Origin: Oscillospiraceae bacterium
Lineage (GTDB): Bacteria; Bacillota; Clostridia; Oscillospirales; Oscillospiraceae
Direction: 5' to 3'
Length of the DNA: 41,363 nt
Assembly (NCBI GenBank): GCA_016292255.1
Contig: JAEEZZ010000068.1
Location: forward strand, 1 to 41,363
Shown here: one piece after another, positions 5,409 through 27,960 of the stretch
Layout: every line of letters starts with the position of its first letter
How positions within the stretch are numbered: position 1 is the stretch's first letter
Notes under the pieces: model-generated
What the model saw: the letters and a program-made list of their open reading frames with translations, nothing else
Told to the model about the DNA's origin: nothing
The model's database searches: none
Translations under genes and position numbers: made by a program

Positions 5409-5482
5409 GTAATAGGTAATAGGTAATAAGTATTGCGAACGTCGTACGTTTTTACTTATTACTTGTTACTTATTACTTGTCA
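5409..5482. repeat. AT-rich inverted repeat (GTAATAAGTA...ACTTATTAC) inside the purine operon
   Basis: agtaataggtaataggtaataagta ... AACGTcgtACGTT ... tttacttattacttgttacttattactt. Confidence 0.6.
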
Positions 5483-12484: not shown

Positions 12485-12493
12485 CTTTTCATG

Positions 12494-15400
12494 TCAGTTC
12501 ATCATGCGATAGAGGAAGGTCACGACCTGGGCACGGTTGCAGACCGTATCCGGGCTGAAGCGATCCGTGGTGGTACCGGCGGTAATGCCGTTCTCCCAGG
12601 CCCACAGGACGGCGGGCGCGAAGTAGGCGTCCATGTCCAGATCCCGGAACGGGCTGACGCTGGTTTCCGGTTCGGGACTGCCGGCGAGACGCCAGAGGAA
12701 GGTCACGACCTGCGATCTGGTGCAGGTGGCGTAGGGGCTGAATCTGTTCTCACCGGTGCCGGCGGTGATGCCCATGCCGACGGCCCAGAGGACAGCCTTC
12801 TCATAATAGCTGCCGGGCTCCACGTCGGTGAAGGGATTCTCCATGCTCTCCGGCTCCGGGCTGCCTGCTGCCCGCCACAGGAAGGTCACGGTCTGGGCTC
12901 TGGTGCAGATCTGGGCGGGGCTGAAGGTGGTCTCGGTGGTGCCCGCGGTGACGTGCTTCACAATGGCCCAGTCGATGGCGTCGTGGGCCCAGTGTCCCTT
13001 GGCCGGCATATCGGTAAAGATCTTGCCGGGGCAGCCCTCGCCGCCGTCGCAGGGCAGGGTGGGCTCGCCGCCCTCTCCCTCGGTGGTGTAGTAGACCGTG
13101 CCGGAGGGCGTCTCTGCCCAGAGGCTGAGGCCGATCCCGGTGCTTGCGGTACACATGAAGAAGGAGCCGTAGCCGATGTAGGGATAGCTGGTGGCGTTCA
13201 CGTTCTTGATGTTGACCTCGCCGTTCTGCTGCATGGTGAACGACCAGTCGCAGGTCGCGGCGTCATAGCTGCTCACTGCCTGAAGCGCAAGGGTCTGCTC
13301 GGCAAGGTAGCTTTGCTTCTCCGCATTCTGGATCGCGTAGTTTCCGTTCTTGCTCTGCACGTCGAACACGTACAGCTCGGAGGCGCCGGAGATCGCGTCG
13401 TCCTCCAGGGTCATGCCGGAGGAGATGAAGGCGGTAGCGCCGCCGGAGTTGCCGGATTCGTAGCTTCCGCCGGCAATACCGGTGAGAACCGTGCAGGTGT
13501 TGGTCTTTCCGCGGGTGATCATCCAGCGGCCGCTCCAATCGGCAGGGGCCTCTGTCTGAAGGGTATAGACCACTTCCCCGTTGCCGCCCTCCACTCTGGA
13601 GAACAGGGCATAGAGGGTGATATTCTCCGGCGCGACGTAGTTGCCGTTCAGGATCCCGGTGGGCCGCACGGTCACGTTGTTGTAAGTCCCGGTGACCCAA
13701 CCCAGGAACTTGTAGCCCTCCGGCGCCTGGGCCGTGGGCAGGGTGATCCCCGTGCCGGTGTTGGATTCCATCGGCGCGATCACCGTGGTGTTGCCAAAGA
13801 CGGAGAAGGTGACGGTAAAGGTGTTGCCCAGGGCGGGAACGTAGCTGTCGATGAAGCTGTAGCCGCAGTGGACGCAGGTATGGGTGGTGTAGCCCTGGGA
13901 GGTCTGGGTGGGCGGCGTCACCACGTCCTCGTAGCTGCAGTTCTCCGTTGCCGTCTGGCCGCAGACGTTGCAGACGTGATCGTGGGTGCCGTCGTTGTTG
14001 GACGTGCAGGAAGCGCCCTCATAGTTGTGCTCGCCGGTGGCGGGAACCACTGTGTCGGCCAGGCTGATCTGATTCTGCCCCTGGGCGTCGGAGAAATACT
14101 TGCCGCAGATCGTGCAGCGCCAATACTCCGTGTTGCCGTGGGCGCCGCAGGTGGGGGGCACCGCTTCGTGGTGCTCCAGCTCGTGGGTGTGGTTCGCCGC
14201 TACCGGGTTGGTGGTATAATACGGCGTGCCGGTGGGCTCGCCCTTCCAGAGGAACACGCCCCAATAGTTTGTGCTGGAGGAGGTGTCCCAATAGTTGCTG
14301 GAGGTATAGCACAGGGCGTAAGTGGAGTAAATCAGGGAGGAGACCAGGAACTTGCCCTCGTAGCTGTCTGTGTCCTTGGTGACAGTCCACTTGGCGTTCG
14401 AAGAAACCGTATCCACCGCGTTCAGGCCGCTGCTGGCGTCGTTGACATAGACCCCGTCCATGCTGGCGGACTTGATGGTATAGGCCGCGGCGGTATCGCT
14501 GTGCTCAAAGATGAAGATGTTGGTCAGCGGCACGTCCGTCATTACGCTGCCGTCCGTGATGGTCGCGCCTGCGGTGGAGATCTTCGTCTCATACTTGTGG
14601 TTCTTGTATTGCTCGCCCTTGGGGATCGTGGGCAGGATATAGCTGTCGCTGGTCTTGCCGGAGCTGATGACATAGCGGCCCTCGATCTCATCCGGGGTCT
14701 CCGTCACCAGGCGGAAGAGCTCGCCGTCGTTGCCCTCAAAGCGCCGGAACATGGCGTAGAGCGTAGTATTCTCCGTCAGGGTGTACTGCTCCCGGGGGAG
14801 ATAGTAGTCGGGCGTCTGCTCCGTCTCCAGCAGGGTGGCTCCGTACCAGCCGATAAAGCTGTAGTCCTCGGTGAAGTTGGTGTTCTGGATCGTGCCGGGA
14901 AGCTGGATGGAATCGTTGAGGTAACCGGTCACGCTGCCCTCGTCTTCCCCGTTGGCCACAAAATGAACCGTGATCTGGGGTCTGGGCGCAAAGTTGACCT
15001 GGATGGAGCAGTCAGAGCTGGGATTCACAGAGATGGTGTTCCCGTTGATCACAAGCTCCGCCGTGCCGCTGAGCACCTGGGCGGACTCCACGTAATAGCC
15101 CTCGATGGGTTCTGCCAGGATGGAGCTGCCATAGACGGCAACGCTGCCCCAGGCGGGATTGTTGACGCTGGCGGTGATGGTGTAGCTCAGCTCCTCAGGC
15201 TGGGCAGTCGCCTCGTTCTCGGCGTAGTCGCCTGCGAAGACCTTGAGGTTTGCGGGATTGCTGATGCCGGAGATGTCGAAGCTGTAGGTGACGGTCTGGC
15301 CCCGGACGCTCTGCTCGGGGATCAGCTGCTGCACCGTGGTGCTGCCGTTCAGCAGCGCCAGCTTGGCGATCCAGTTCTCATCCTTGACTGTCACGACGAC

Positions 15401-18400
15401 CTGCGTGCCGTTTCGAATGGCGGAGAGGATCACGGGGGCGGTATTGTCCATGTAGAAGTCATAGCCCACCAGGGCGCCCTTGCCCAGGACGTTATTCTGC
15501 AGCACCCTTGCAAAGCCGGAGCTTGTCAGCACACCGGCGGTAACTGCGTTCAGATCCTCATTAACCTGCATGGCGTTGTATTCGGGGATCGCGTAATAGC
15601 CGAAGCGGATCCGGTCTCCCTCCTGGGCGCCGTAGGAGGCAAAGGTCTTATTCACAGACTTGGTTTTGCTGTAGTTGTTCTGCCATGCGCCGCTGGACTG
15701 GGCGTAGTACATTCCTTGAACATTGGTGTTGTCCACCGTGGAATCCAGAACGCCGGTCACCTGGCCCTGCTCATTGATCCTGCTGACGCCGATGCCGGTG
15801 GTACCGGCGGGCCGGACCAGCAGATAGCGGATCTGCTTGACGGTGTCGGTGGTACGCATGGCCAGACGATCCGCCGGGAAGGGAGTCTCGGTGAAGTAGG
15901 GGTTGCCGGTCACGTACTTGGTGGTGCTGGAGGAGCCGCGGGAATAGGTGATGTAGTTGGTGCTGCCGTCGCCGGCGTAGCCGGTGCGGGGGTCGCCGTT
16001 CACGTTCACGTCCACATAGGAGCTATGGTCGAACATATTGGGATCCGTCCAGGAGCCGTAGAAGCCCAGGATGGGGATGGAATGCCGCACGTCCAGCTTC
16101 GCGCCGTCGGTCGTGGTGGTCTGGCTCTCCACATAGGTAAAGCCTTCCACATATGCGCCCCGGGGATAGAGGGCGTCAAACTCGCTCATGTCGGCGGGAA
16201 TGGTGATGGTGACCGTCACAGTCTGGCTGCCGCCGGCGGGAACGGTCACGGTGCTGCCGGTGGAGTAGGAGACGGGCCAGTCCAGCAAAGTGGTGGACTG
16301 AGCCATATGGGCATAGCCGTCCTCGCCCACGTAGCGACCCTGGGTGAACAGGTCGGTGGACAGGGCGTAGGTCTGCGCCTGAGAAGCGGTGTTGTAGAGG
16401 TTGAACGACCAGGTATAGCTGCCGAAGCGGGCGGGCTTGTCGCCGATCTCCGCCTTGACCTTGCCGTCCGCGTAGGAGACGTTGGCGTCCTCGTTCATGA
16501 AAATGAAGGACGAAGCGTGTACCGCCTGCCGGACGTTCGCCAGGCCTGCGCCCTGCTGCAGAATGGAATAATAGGGGCCGTCCTCGCTGCCGATGTGCAT
16601 AGGCACTGCAGTGGACATCAGCAGGCTCTGCACGATCTGACGGGTGGTCTTGCCCGGGATGCTGATGTTGTTTTCCCGCAGATACTGCCCCAGGGTGCCG
16701 GTCAGGCCGGAGATATGGGGCGCGGCCATGGAGGTGCCGGACATCAGCTCATACTGATCCGAGCCGCCTTCGATCGCGCCGCTCTTGGCCTTGTTGGTGC
16801 CCCAGACAGAGTAGATACTGCCGCCGGGAGCCGTGATCTCGGGCTTCATGGTCAGCGCGCCGGGAGCGCCCCAGGAGGAGAAGTCGGACATCTCCGCATT
16901 CGCGGAGATCTGCGTCGATTCCGCATGGTCGGTCACCTGCACCGTTCCGGTGTAATAGGTAATGCTGCCGGCGGTGTGTGCCTCAGAGTTTTCCTTGATG
17001 GTCAGCGCATCGGCCAGGGTGATGGCTACCATGGGGAAGCTGCCGGTGTAATCGGTCAGAGACATGTTGACAGTGCCGGAGATGTCGTTGGCCACCACAA
17101 GGCCCTTGGGGTTGTAGCTGATGGCGTTGTTGCCCTTGTCTACAAAGCTGATCTCGCCGCGGTTGACCAGGACGATCTTGCCCGCCAGGGACAGCTGAGC
17201 ATTGACGGTGCTGTAATCCGAGGCGTTGCCCACGGCGTCAATGTACACGTAGTCGTAGCTGCCGGCCACGTCGGTCATCTTGCCGCCGCTGTTGCCGGTC
17301 TCCGTATAGAACACCTTCTGGCTGTCGTTAAAGATCATCGGCGTGCCGCGCACGTGCGTATTGTCCGCGGAGGCAACACAGAGGGAGTTGAGATAGGAAC
17401 CGGGATCGCCGCCGGTGTGCATATGCACGTCCTCGATATAGAGGTCGTAATTGTCGCCGTTGGCGTCCTGCAGGAATTCCGTGAAGGAAAAGCTGTTGCC
17501 TGCGGAAATGGAGACCACCATCTTGGTGTTGGCGTTCATATCTGCGATCTTGTTCCAGGTATTCTGATAGCTGCTGGCGTCAGAATAGCTGAAGCCCTGC
17601 GAGGCGGAGCCCAGGGACATATTCACCACGTCGCAGTCCAGCACAAGGGCGTCTTCGATGGCGCCCACATAGGTGGAATCAAAGGGGCCGTATCCGGAGC
17701 CGAAGACCTTCATGACAAAGATCTGGGCGTCCGGGGCCATGCCCAACGCGCCCACGGCGTCCGCAGCGTCCACGTAGTCCGAGCCGCTCTTGATAAAGCG
17801 GTTCGCGGCGGCGATGCCGGCCACATGAGAGCCGTGCTCGCTCTGCGTGTCGTTCAGGTGGTTGATGGTGGTATTATAATCCACATAGTTGTAGCCAAAG
17901 GGGATCTTGCTGGAGACGTAGACCGCGGAGCTGGCGTTCAGCTGGCTCTTGATGGCGTTCAGATCCGCCTGGGTAAAGAGATCCACGTCCTTGCCGGTCT
18001 CCTGGATCGCGTGCTCAAAGGCGTCCGCATCGAAGGACTGGTGGGTGGTGTCGATGCCGGTATCGATGATGGCGATACGGGTGCCGGCGCCGGTGTAGCC
18101 CTCGGCCCAGACCTCGGAGGCGCCGACCATATAGGTGGCGGTGTTGGCGGTGTTGGGCTGAGCAGGCTCTTCCTTCACCGGCTCATCATTCTGGAAGCAG
18201 CGCTCCAGCTCCACGCTCTTTACGCCGGGAACCTGTCTGACCAGATCCAGCTCGCCGTAGGGAAGCTCCACAGATATGGCGTTGGCCAGCAGCGTCAGGT
18301 TCATCTTCACATCGAGCTTGGCGCCGATGGCGTTTTCGATCCTTGCCTGGACGTCATTCTGCTTGGACTTCAGCTGATCGCGGTAGGCAACCAGAGAAGC

Positions 18401-18676
18401 GTTTCTGGAAACGTGATCCATGGAATAGCCCGCGTCGATGGGAGCGGGATCCTCCAGGAAGATGGACACACGAACGATCTCATCCGCGGCATAGGGTTCC
18501 TGCTCCGCGGAGCCGTCTGCTTCCTCAGCAGGCGCAGAAAAAATGCTCTGACTGTCTTCCCCTCCGTTCTGCACTGCGCCGGGGTCAGCGTAGGCCGCCG
18601 GGACAAGCAGGGTGCCGAGGATCGTCAGAACCAGAAACAGGGATAAGAGCTTGCGAACGGTTCTTGCGTTTTGCAT
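12494..18676 (-). CDS. Secreted S8 (subtilisin/lactocepin-like) serine protease with InlB-type repeats, CxxC modules and three C-terminal SLH domains
   Basis: Signal peptide MQNARTVRKLLSLFLVLTILGTLLVPAAYA; catalytic motifs IAIIDTGID (Asp), HGSHVAGIAA (His), GTSMAAPHISG (Ser); repeats ending ENTTLYAMF / ENITLYALF; three SLH motifs (DAIDWAIVKHVTAGTTETTFSPAQICTRAQTVTFLWR and two more). Confidence 0.93.
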   Translation of the reverse strand: MQNARTVRKLLSLFLVLTILGTLLVPAAYADPGAVQNGGEDSQSIFSAPAEEADGSAEQEPYAADEIVRVSIFLEDPAPIDAGYSMDHVSRNASLVAYRDQLKSKQNDVQARIENAIGAKLDVKMNLTLLANAISVELPYGELDLVRQVPGVKSVELERCFQNDEPVKEEPAQPNTANTATYMVGASEVWAEGYTGAGTRIAIIDTGIDTTHQSFDADAFEHAIQETGKDVDLFTQADLNAIKSQLNASSAVYVSSKIPFGYNYVDYNTTINHLNDTQSEHGSHVAGIAAANRFIKSGSDYVDAADAVGALGMAPDAQIFVMKVFGSGYGPFDSTYVGAIEDALVLDCDVVNMSLGSASQGFSYSDASSYQNTWNKIADMNANTKMVVSISAGNSFSFTEFLQDANGDNYDLYIEDVHMHTGGDPGSYLNSLCVASADNTHVRGTPMIFNDSQKVFYTETGNSGGKMTDVAGSYDYVYIDAVGNASDYSTVNAQLSLAGKIVLVNRGEISFVDKGNNAISYNPKGLVVANDISGTVNMSLTDYTGSFPMVAITLADALTIKENSEAHTAGSITYYTGTVQVTDHAESTQISANAEMSDFSSWGAPGALTMKPEITAPGGSIYSVWGTNKAKSGAIEGGSDQYELMSGTSMAAPHISGLTGTLGQYLRENNISIPGKTTRQIVQSLLMSTAVPMHIGSEDGPYYSILQQGAGLANVRQAVHASSFIFMNEDANVSYADGKVKAEIGDKPARFGSYTWSFNLYNTASQAQTYALSTDLFTQGRYVGEDGYAHMAQSTTLLDWPVSYSTGSTVTVPAGGSQTVTVTITIPADMSEFDALYPRGAYVEGFTYVESQTTTTDGAKLDVRHSIPILGFYGSWTDPNMFDHSSYVDVNVNGDPRTGYAGDGSTNYITYSRGSSSTTKYVTGNPYFTETPFPADRLAMRTTDTVKQIRYLLVRPAGTTGIGVSRINEQGQVTGVLDSTVDNTNVQGMYYAQSSGAWQNNYSKTKSVNKTFASYGAQEGDRIRFGYYAIPEYNAMQVNEDLNAVTAGVLTSSGFARVLQNNVLGKGALVGYDFYMDNTAPVILSAIRNGTQVVVTVKDENWIAKLALLNGSTTVQQLIPEQSVRGQTVTYSFDISGISNPANLKVFAGDYAENEATAQPEELSYTITASVNNPAWGSVAVYGSSILAEPIEGYYVESAQVLSGTAELVINGNTISVNPSSDCSIQVNFAPRPQITVHFVANGEDEGSVTGYLNDSIQLPGTIQNTNFTEDYSFIGWYGATLLETEQTPDYYLPREQYTLTENTTLYAMFRRFEGNDGELFRLVTETPDEIEGRYVISSGKTSDSYILPTIPKGEQYKNHKYETKISTAGATITDGSVMTDVPLTNIFIFEHSDTAAAYTIKSASMDGVYVNDASSGLNAVDTVSSNAKWTVTKDTDSYEGKFLVSSLIYSTYALCYTSSNYWDTSSSTNYWGVFLWKGEPTGTPYYTTNPVAANHTHELEHHEAVPPTCGAHGNTEYWRCTICGKYFSDAQGQNQISLADTVVPATGEHNYEGASCTSNNDGTHDHVCNVCGQTATENCSYEDVVTPPTQTSQGYTTHTCVHCGYSFIDSYVPALGNTFTVTFSVFGNTTVIAPMESNTGTGITLPTAQAPEGYKFLGWVTGTYNNVTVRPTGILNGNYVAPENITLYALFSRVEGGNGEVVYTLQTEAPADWSGRWMITRGKTNTCTVLTGIAGGSYESGNSGGATAFISSGMTLEDDAISGASELYVFDVQSKNGNYAIQNAEKQSYLAEQTLALQAVSSYDAATCDWSFTMQQNGEVNIKNVNATSYPYIGYGSFFMCTASTGIGLSLWAETPSGTVYYTTEGEGGEPTLPCDGGEGCPGKIFTDMPAKGHWAHDAIDWAIVKHVTAGTTETTFSPAQICTRAQTVTFLWRAAGSPEPESMENPFTDVEPGSYYEKAVLWAVGMGITAGTGENRFSPYATCTRSQVVTFLWRLAGSPEPETSVSPFRDLDMDAYFAPAVLWAWENGITAGTTTDRFSPDTVCNRAQVVTFLYRMMN

Positions 18677-18784
18677 GGATATGGCTCCTTTATCGATTTT
18701 GCCATTCGGCTGTTCTATTAAACCATTTTTTTCGGAAAAAAGCAACAGCTTTTGCAAGCTTTTTTGAAGAATATGTGAAGAACA

Positions 18785-19835: not shown

Positions 19836-21428
19836 CTAATCCGTCACGCGTACCACGCCCGGATGCTCCTTGCCGAAGGCGACAAGCTTATTCAGCGGAT
19901 CGTTCTCTCCCCGCTTCTCGCCCCGCAGCACCACCCGGACACGGATCGGCCGGTGGAGCAGAACTCCTGCGCGCTGGGCCACGTGTTCCCGCACGTCATC
20001 CTGATCTACGATGCTCTTCACCATCTCCCCGGCGGCGATCAGCTCCAGCAGATCGCCGTGGAGGGCGGGAACCAGCAGATTGGCTTCATTTGTGTTGAAA
20101 TAGCCGCCCAGAGAGGGCCGCCACTTCCGCACCGCGTCCGCCAGATCCGCCCAGAACGACACGGGCAGGGGCTGATCGGGCTCCGGCTCCGGCTGAGTGT
20201 CCGGCTGGGGCGCGGCAGGGGCTGCCTGTTCCCCAGGCTCCGGCTCCGGGGTCGGCCTCGGCTGGGGGGCCGGGAGCACGCCGGATTCCAGCACGGTCTC
20301 CAGGTGGGAGAGCCTGGCGTTCAGGGCCTGGACGTCGGCGTCCAGCGTAGGCTCGCACATCTGCAGCAGGCAGAGCTCCACGTCGATCCGCCGGTTGGCG
20401 CTTTTGTTGAAGCCGGAGGCGGTGTCCTGCAGCAGCCGGGTGTGCCGCAGCAGCTCCCCGGCGGAGAAGCGGGGCAGCAGGGCCCGCAGCTCGGCGTCGG
20501 TGCAGACGCCGGTCAGCATGGAAGCGCCGGTCTGAGGTGCGGTTTTGAGCAGCAGCAGATCCCGGCAGAGGCTGACCAGCTCGTCCACCAGGGCGGCAAG
20601 ATCCTTCCCCTCCGCGTACTGCCTCGTGAGCAGGCTGAGCACCCGGCCGGTATCCCGATCCGCAGCGGCGCTGAGCAGCTCTCCGGCCGCCTTTGCCCCT
20701 GCGATGCCCAGGGTGTTGTAGACCGTCTCCGGGGTGATCTGCCCCGATGAAGCGGCAGCGCACTGATCCAGCAGGGAGAGGCCGTCCCGCAGGGCGCCGT
20801 CGGCCAGACGGCCCAGGAGCATCGCAGCCTCCTCCGTGACGTCCAGACCCTCCTCATAGGCCACGTAGTGGATCCGGGCGGCCACGTCCGCCGGGTCGAT
20901 CCGCCGGAAGGAGAAGCGCTGACAGCGGGAGAGGATCGTGGCGGGAACCTTGTGCAGCTCGGTGGTGGCGAGAATGAACATCAGGTGGGGGGGCGGCTCC
21001 TCGATGATCTTCAACAGGGCGTTGAAGGCCGACATGGAGAGCATATGGACCTCGTCGATGATGTAGACCCGCTTTTTGACCTGGGTGGGCGCGTAAACAG
21101 CGTCCTCCCGCAGGGTGCGGACGTTGTCCACGCCGTTGTTGGAGGCGGCGTCGATCTCCAGCACGTCCATGCAGGCGCCGCTGTCGATGCTCTGGCAGGC
21201 GGCGCAGCAGTTGCAGGGATTGCCGTCCACGGGATGCAGGCAGTTGACCGCCTTGGCCAGGATCTTGGAGCAGGTGGTCTTGCCGGTGCCCCGGGAGCCG
21301 GTGAACAGATAGGCATGGCTGAGCTTGCCCGTGACCACCTGGGTGCGGAGGATCTGGGTGATACTCCCCTGCCCCACCACGTCGTCGAAGGTCTGGGGAC
21401 GATATTTTCGGTATAGGGCCTGGTACAC
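19836..21428 (-). CDS. dnaX: DNA polymerase III subunits gamma and tau
   Basis: VYQALYRKYRPQTFDDVVGQ...GSRGTGKTTCSKILAKAVNC...IDEVHMLSMSAFNALLKIIEEPP; start set at GTG 21428 with SD GGAGGTGA, shorter than the supplied ORF. Confidence 0.95.
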   Translation of the reverse strand: MYQALYRKYRPQTFDDVVGQGSITQILRTQVVTGKLSHAYLFTGSRGTGKTTCSKILAKAVNCLHPVDGNPCNCCAACQSIDSGACMDVLEIDAASNNGVDNVRTLREDAVYAPTQVKKRVYIIDEVHMLSMSAFNALLKIIEEPPPHLMFILATTELHKVPATILSRCQRFSFRRIDPADVAARIHYVAYEEGLDVTEEAAMLLGRLADGALRDGLSLLDQCAAASSGQITPETVYNTLGIAGAKAAGELLSAAADRDTGRVLSLLTRQYAEGKDLAALVDELVSLCRDLLLLKTAPQTGASMLTGVCTDAELRALLPRFSAGELLRHTRLLQDTASGFNKSANRRIDVELCLLQMCEPTLDADVQALNARLSHLETVLESGVLPAPQPRPTPEPEPGEQAAPAAPQPDTQPEPEPDQPLPVSFWADLADAVRKWRPSLGGYFNTNEANLLVPALHGDLLELIAAGEMVKSIVDQDDVREHVAQRAGVLLHRPIRVRVVLRGEKRGENDPLNKLVAFGKEHPGVVRVTD

Positions 21429-21460
21429 GGATTTGTTCACCTCCCCGGATCTTGAGTTTT

Positions 21461-21790
21461 GATTGCGGCAAGCGCCGCAAGTTAAGATTGCCCGGGCGGG
21501 CAAGTTATGATTTGCCTGCGGCAAAGTTATGATTGCCCTGCGGCAAAGTTATGATTGCCCTGCGGCAAAGTTATGATTGCCCTGCGGCAAAGTTATGATT
21601 GCCCTGCGGGCAAGCTGCGGTATGCCTTCGGCATGAATTTAAAATCCATTTTTCAGATTGAAAATCTGAAAAATACCGAAACGCGCGCAGCGCTCTTAAC
21701 TTGTGCGAAGCACAATCATAACTTGCGAAGCAATCATAACTTTCGCGCAGCGAAATTTTAACTCCCGCCTGTCCCCCAGGGACAGGCGGA
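21461..21790. repeat. Array of short hairpins with GTTATGA/TCATAAC linkers around a central palindrome
   Basis: Three exact copies of gattgccctgcggcaaagttat at 21531-21596 with degenerate units on the left; right part has TTGTGCgaaGCACAA, TTGCgaaGCAA, TTTCGCgcaGCGAAA separated by tcataac; central ATTTTTCAGATTgaaAATCTGAAAAAT at 21648-21674. Confidence 0.85.
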
Positions 21791-22085
21791 CCGGCCCATG
21801 ACAAGATCGCACACCTACATTTGAACTTGCGTTATACCCGTTTCCCGGACAGCCAGCTCAGGAACGGCTGACTCACGGCACACGGAACTTGCCGCTTAAT
21901 GCTGCTCGGTTCCCCGCCTGACATGGTTCACGGGGTTCCGTTGCGTGAGACCGATCCCTCAACACCGCTTATACGGACAGCAGCACAACGCAAGCCCGGG
22001 TGTAGGGATTCACTCCTGCTGTAGCGGATTGCAGGTTACAGGGCACCGCTATCTCCCCGGCTAGTGCGACCTTGTCATGGGCCGG
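21791..22085 (-). ncRNA. ffs: Signal recognition particle RNA (large, Gram-positive type)
   Basis: Minus strand: ends pair (CCGGCCCATGACAAG / CTTGTCATGGGCCGG); CTAGCCGGGGAGATAGCGGTGCCCTGTAACCTGCAATCCGCTA; apical core CCCCGTGAACCATGTCAGGCGGGGAACCGAGCAGCATTAAG; next to dnaX. Confidence 0.92.
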
Positions 22086-26127: not shown

Positions 26128-26160
26128 AATGCAAAATGCATAATGCAAAATGCAAAATCG
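26128..26160. repeat. AT-rich short tandem repeat (TGCAAAATGCATAATGCAAAATGCAAAAT)
   Basis: Direct reading; a related sequence is at 26824-26851. Confidence 0.55.
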
Positions 26161-26303: not shown

Positions 26304-26334
26304 GAATAGGTAATAAGTAAGAAGTAAGCGTTAT
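26304..26334. repeat. AT-rich repeat AATAGGTAATAAGTAAGAAGTAAG, related to 5409-5482
   Basis: Shares aataggtaataagta with the element in the purine operon. Confidence 0.5.
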
Positions 26335-26790: not shown

Positions 26791-26820
26791 GCGGACAAGC
26801 AATGCTTGTCCCTACGGGCG
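26791..26820. repeat. Dispersed palindromic element (GCGGACAAGCAATGCTTGTCCCTACGGGCG)
   Basis: GGACAAGCAatGCTTGTCC palindrome, same layout as the copy in tmcAL at 31030-31053. Confidence 0.6.
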
Positions 26821-26850
26821 TGGTCATTATGCATTATGAATTCTGCATTC

Positions 26851-27925: not shown

Positions 27926-27960
27926 AAATTTTCAACTTTCAATTATCAACTTTCAACTTG
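27926..27960. repeat. AT-rich repeat TTTTCAACTTTCAATTATCAACTTTCAACTTG
   Basis: Direct reading; overlaps the 3' end of the YigZ-like gene. Confidence 0.5.

Follow-up and report, generated by a model that had tools for sequence, protein, structure and literature searches.

The four-helix-bundle proteins of the PF05635 family (FHB, for gene and protein alike; "23S rRNA intervening-sequence protein", TIGR02436) are widespread, and to our knowledge their function is not known. In the 23S rRNA intervening sequence (IVS) of Coxiella burnetii, GACAGAT heptamers lie directly upstream of the FHB (S23p) open reading frame (PMC4990558); the accessible text of that paper draws no general link between heptamers and FHBs. 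The family is also related to Avd (PMC10053308). Heptameric repeats of Nostoc and Xanthomonas (PMC4692102) and TAACTGA repeats of Beggiatoaceae (PMC4679880) were reported, in the accessible parts of both papers, without explanation, and for the latter a regulon of RNA-binding proteins was proposed there (PMC4679880). A search of open-licence PMC papers, with preprints and subscription journals outside its range, found no link between PF05635 and heptamer arrays.

The array between ffs and dnaX

The window, i.e., the whole stretch of 41,363 nucleotides that was analysed, belongs to a genome (G000) represented by a fragmented assembly that is about 86% complete. Between ffs (21807..22069, minus strand; bacterial large SRP RNA, Rfam RF01854, 194 bits) and dnaX (19836..21440, minus strand; GTG start at 21440-21438, GGGGAGG just upstream, the start having been picked by reading the sequence) lies a hairpin-tag array of two mirrored halves at 21456..21762; most relatives have none at this junction. 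On the transcribed strand it comes directly before the ribosome-binding site of dnaX. The left half (21456..21598, plus strand) carries the tags GTTTTGA at 21456, GTTAAGA at 21481 and GTTATGA at 21504, 21526, 21548, 21570 and 21592, with one complete hairpin between each pair. It is followed on the same strand, at 21599..21634, by the final left hairpin TTGCCCTGCGGGCAA, a decayed tag GCTGCGG and the hairpin ATGCCttcGGCAT; the core of this stretch recurs at locus C71 of G000 and in the same-genus genomes G016 and G004. The centre of the array is an AT-rich palindrome, ATTTTTCAGATTgaaAATCTGAAAAAT (21648..21674), with homologous cores in the G016 and G004 arrays. The right half (21683..21762, minus strand) contains the inverted tags TCTTAAC at 21694, TCATAAC at 21716 and 21734, and TTTTAAC at 21756, together with the hairpins GCGCGCAGCGC, TTGTGCGAAGCACAA, TTGCGAAGCAA and TTTCGCGCAGCGAAA, and is identical at the same site in the sister species G016.

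Re-examination of the sequence thus bore out the linkers, varied stems, mirrored halves and central palindrome of the original prediction. That prediction also let the array end at an 11-bp hairpin; the hairpin is real (21765..21789, adjoining ffs) but lies outside the array proper, and G003 and G021 have unrelated hairpins at that place.

The linker is exactly 7 nt long throughout (GTTATGA, with the variants GTTAAGA, GTTTTGA and GCTGCGG; TCATAAC, TCTTAAC and TTTTAAC in the other half), and the interval between two tags is normally one complete foot-to-foot hairpin with its outermost bases paired. Since the intervals are whole hairpins, taking them out turns the chain into a plain tandem heptamer. 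For the same reason the array is not a CRISPR, as had been stated from the outset: what lies between the constant repeats is self-complementary and not a set of unrelated spacers. An exception to complete pairing is TTGCCCTGCGGCAAA, present in three exact 22-bp copies with GTTATGA between them (21533..21591, plus strand), which forms a shifted 5-bp stem only and looks, from its letters, like a chimera of two adjacent stems (TTGCCC.. and ..GGCAAA). Locus C71 also has chimeric units (TTTCCC..GGGCAA), and slippage or recombination among units thus appears to shape the array as well; the three identical copies probably reflect recent slippage or amplification.

Chance is excluded as the origin of the array. 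The tag pattern matches five times in the window versus 0.24 expected, while the reversed-pattern control has no match in the whole genome. Covariation was measured by pair counting over 20 aligned distinct units: across six stem pairs, 96.7% of cells are standard-paired (72.2% when shuffled), 30 cells are changed on both sides (8.6 when shuffled, with none of 500 shuffles as high), and the covariation score is 0.618 versus 0.144. The four middle stem pairs change on both sides, whereas the T-A foot pair is invariant and the loop-closing C-G nearly fixed. Sliding the partner column by one reduces pairing to about half, and the arm-swap control gives a mean stem of 4.9 versus 2.6. The proposal that the units conserve their structure and not the sequence of their stems, for which a search for covarying stems had been suggested, therefore holds. 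As RNA, the array folds at -155.8 kcal/mol (z = -10.7), and its halves can pair with each other, as IVS ends do.

Five further short intergenic heptamer arrays were noticed in the window (5409-5480, 26128-26158, 26305-26327, 26825-26849 and 27927-27959), at least two of them with the tag of another G000 FHB gene. The mirrored plain array at 5409..5480 (GTAATAG/AGTAATA type) shares its tag with FHB G000:C85:32230 and the plain array at 26128..26158 (ATGCAAA) with FHB G000:C6:30695, while that at 27927..27959 (TTTCAAC/CTTTCAA type) resembles the tag of FHB G000:C115:18117; the automatic exact-tag scan matched AGTAATA, GTTATGA and ATGCAAA, and TTTCAAC was matched by eye only. The window also contains a GTAG-type REP, GGACAAGCAATGCTTGTCCCTAC (26793-26815), which matches palindromes beside a RAYT gene at G000:C67, and, on the minus strand at 12491-18757, a gene for a 2087-aa subtilisin-like secreted protein; the 2051-aa open frame opposite this gene is probably a codon-usage artefact.

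Distribution of the arrays

The original prediction called for copies to be sought in the genome and its relatives, and the same design was found in both. G000 has such arrays at seven other loci (C6 and C118 once each; C71, C85 and C132 twice each), the same-genus genomes G003, G004, G016 and G021 carry them, and other families of the order contain single cases. In a tag-pattern scan of 84,980 species, uncultured Clostridia had clear arrays of tags and hairpins; the remaining matches mostly look like chance or another design. Bacteroidota matches (L131, L144, L156, L161) were left out of the counts for their different design. Together with L133, these loci carry short AAGTTATGATT arrays, TGATT..AATCA palindromes and inverted ends, and neither of the two Bacteroidota genomes searched (those of L131/L133 and of L144) gave a PF05635 match, a further reason for leaving them out.

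At orthologous sites, arrays come and go. The ffs-dnaX junction is empty in about ten same-genus genomes, and the arrays of G003, G016 and G021 at this place are built of other units, that of G016 having the core and right half in common with the window and a different left half. The mutS-mutL junction likewise shows presence and absence, which fits the MITE-like reading first offered for the array. The ffs-dnaX flanks of different species were compared and are too diverged to measure a target-site duplication.

Different small elements are also nested in one another: a GTAG REPIN occupies the centre of a GTTATGA array (L022 1580-1750, G000:C118), and at C132 a RAYT gene lies between two arrays.

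FHB genes and their private heptamers

A candidate partner came from the arrays in other families, where a PF05635 gene stands right behind the GTTATGA array of L060 and an FHB remnant behind that of L149. Different families of the order (L060, L108, L109, L149) have a larger, nearly identical GTTATGA element, with an intact FHB in one copy and the remnant in another. The FHB has matches to PDB 2rld (E 1e-29; the entry contains five chains) and to TIGR02436.

G000 itself has 12 PF05635 genes. Each of the 12 is accompanied by repeats of a gene-specific 7-mer, and in most cases its reverse complement stands on the opposite side of the gene. Some tags form plain tandems (TTGAAAG, AGTAATA, ATGCAAA); with others (GTTATGA, GTGATGT, ATGAAGT) every junction holds a hairpin. 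Foot-to-foot hairpins occur at many different 7-nt tags in FHB flanks. One gene, G000:C85:34888 (C85b, L197), sits inside a GTTATGA/GTTAAGA hairpin array, i.e., has the tag of the window. The GTTATGA tag also accompanies an FHB of the same subfamily at L228 of G008 and at L060, which comes from another family.

This association was quantified by requiring an exact 7-mer at least twice upstream of the gene and its reverse complement at least twice downstream. In a set that includes syntenic within-genus orthologues, so that not all members are independent, 56 of 97 FHBs (45 of 83 in the genomes examined, 11 of 14 in named plasmids) have mirrored 7-mers, versus 6 of 216 control open reading frames (Fisher 2e-28); with at least three copies on each side the numbers are 27 and 0. 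A first control set turned out to contain RAYT loci and further FHB loci. About 40% of FHBs do not pass the strict exact test, which counts against the association, and by eye many of the FHBs have decayed or upstream-only arrays; a version allowing one mismatch separated FHBs poorly from controls, and the exact version was used instead. Among lags 3 to 15, only 7 and 14 give a peak of tandem signal in the FHB flanks; at lag 7 this signal amounts to 25 per mille (119 in the named plasmids) versus 3.9 in controls.

Closely related FHBs share tags. A repeated 7-mer is common to 75% of FHB pairs that are at least 85% identical and at non-syntenic loci, versus 1-7% of pairs less than 70% identical; permutation of tag sharing reached at most 0.135 versus an observed 0.21. 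Against this specificity, some FHBs of the C85 subfamily carry a different tag (L245, L246) or none that is clear (L219), which means that tags switch within a subfamily. Also on the negative side, no FHB with a GTTATGA tag was found in the 81-83% complete assemblies of G016 and G004 despite their GTTATGA arrays; most genomes compared are fragmented assemblies.

The pattern extends over several phyla, with examples in named Cyanobacteria, Treponema, Bernardetia, Chlorohelix and Monoglobus. Euhalothece has the order (ACCAGTG)n-FHB-(CACTGGT)n, Dolichospermum (TAATTCG)n-FHB-(CGAATTA)n and Nostoc (GTCGCAA)n-FHB-(TTGCGAC)n, and in Bernardetia a TAGTGAT array precedes the FHB. Twelve period-7 runs were counted in 50 kb of a Nostoc plasmid and none in 50 kb of the E. 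coli K-12 chromosome.

FHB elements were also observed in or beside conserved operons: cas1-cas2 (L288), beside cas1 (L296), hsdS-hsdR (L286) and mutS-mutL (L197). In Anabaena cylindrica an FHB lies between cas1 and cas2. A published survey scored PF05635 as CRISPR-linked (PMC10910872). The operon location may explain this score, and insertion into operons may more generally explain why PF05635 genes turn up between cas1 and cas2, hsdS and hsdR, or mutS and mutL.

Proposed solo and full elements, and how they compare with known systems

The relation between arrays with and without a gene is visible at mutS-mutL, where G016 carries a GTTAAGA-type array without FHB and G000 carries that array plus an FHB cassette; the two are about 95% identical once the cassette is skipped. 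On either side of the cassette stand direct repeats of the right half-array, of 73 nt and 81% identity in G000 (L197) and of 94 nt and 98% in G008 (L228). The direct repeats and the cassette-free site together define a full element of the G000:C85:34888 subfamily as left half, right half, FHB, right half, and a solo element as left half and right half. Loss of the gene between two direct right-half copies, or its insertion, would relate the two forms.

The window copy has no gene of its own, other copies with this tag do bear an FHB, and G000:C85:34888 (L197) supplies a same-tag FHB in the same genome; the array has the exact mirrored tags and the optional complete junction hairpins of such an element. 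It is thus probably a solo (gene-less) copy of a very small element family whose only gene is an FHB with a lineage-own mirrored 7-nt tag, GTTATGA in the window being the tag that would belong to the subfamily of G000:C85:34888. The element is probably mobile. We infer that the 7-nt tag is recognised by the FHB, perhaps as single-stranded DNA or RNA with each subunit taking one tag. The tags have a constant length of 7 nt, the hairpins take up whole junctions, and a chain stripped of its hairpins resembles the plain heptamer arrays of other FHBs; most simply, then, the tag would be recognised as a 7-nt single strand while the hairpins loop out and leave the tags contiguous. Hairpins would then be tolerated, with the tag conserved and the stems drifting yet staying paired. 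We know of no nuclease or recombinase activity of the FHB, and its movement may therefore need host enzymes. In a wider and tentative form of this proposal, which is possible but for which we would not claim the better odds, PF05635 proteins are dedicated 7-nt-tag readers: FHB subunits arranged in a ring would each bind one tag, in single-stranded DNA or in RNA, with the hairpins looped out, which would drive copying of the element, and the widespread heptameric repeats of bacteria would be the footprints of mobile DNA without a transposase of known type.

An alternative, which we regard as unlikely, holds that the array acts in cis, in the dnaX leader or in 3' processing of ffs, and that the dispersed tags form the regulon of an RNA-binding FHB. 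In its favour are the strong RNA fold and the fact that, on the transcribed strand, the array comes just ahead of the ribosome-binding site of dnaX; other arrays, too, precede such sites. Against it, dnaX, mutL and other neighbours have no arrays in most relatives, the units at a given site turn over between species, and FHB cassettes lie inside arrays. A part in ending ffs, also suggested at the outset, is possible as well.

It is quite improbable that a RAYT (TnpA-REP), the partner suggested in the original prediction, moves the array as a REP/REPIN-type element, with GTTATGA in the guide role of GTAG and the arms amplified in tandem. The tag 5' of the hairpin and the mirrored halves resemble a REPIN, and the RAYT of C132 lies between two such arrays; however, all units carry GTTATGA or a near variant and not GTAG/GTGG (or CGTC), and the three RAYT genes of G000, like those of the genus, have GTAG palindromes or no clear ones. 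GTTATGA arrays stand beside that one RAYT only and are absent near its closest orthologue, 89% identical in G021, while G003 has arrays and no Y1 match, and FHBs with the GTTATGA tag exist. The first interpretation of the locus is thus partly supported.

Replication slippage with template-switch (quasi-palindrome) correction alone, with no protein partner, is a most improbable source: template switching can make paired changes without selection, and the window has chimeric units and exact 22-bp copies and C71 has chimeras, but slippage gives no account of why each FHB has its own tag, why the halves are mirrored, why some sites are empty or how arrays reached unrelated loci, and the same tag-FHB pairing is partly seen across independent lineages.

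Linking PF05635 to heptamers provides a target for the protein that can be tested, its own 7-mer as DNA or RNA, and likewise an origin for the repeats that can be tested. FHB elements may account for many of the puzzling 7-letter repeats of bacterial genomes.

Among described systems, Avd of diversity-generating retroelements (PMC10053308) has a homologous four-helix-bundle fold and works with nucleic acids and a reverse transcriptase; unlike Avd, the FHBs examined had neither a reverse transcriptase nor template or variable repeats beside them. The repeats of Nostoc, Xanthomonas and Beggiatoaceae are, like those described here, intergenic 7-nt tandems that are sometimes inverted, and Nostoc plasmid FHBs carry such arrays; the accessible text of the reports (PMC4692102, PMC4679880) neither links the repeats to FHB genes nor describes hairpins between tags. 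REPINs and RAYTs (PMC3116915, PMC3733652) offer a short tag with a hairpin, mirrored pairs, a gene family with matching repeats, and scattered gene-less copies. The elements here differ from them in a variable 7-nt tag in place of GTAG or CGTC, in long tandem chains, and in having an FHB and not an HUH transposase. With the 23S IVS that contains an S23/FHB open reading frame they share the protein family, a reading frame between inverted repeats and tandem heptamers, the last being an independent hint, from the Coxiella literature, at the association of FHBs with 7-nt tags. Whereas an IVS lies within 23S rRNA and is excised by RNase III, the elements here, including the array between ffs and dnaX, stand between protein and RNA genes and add to that plan mirrored tag arrays, hairpins between the tags, and solo copies.
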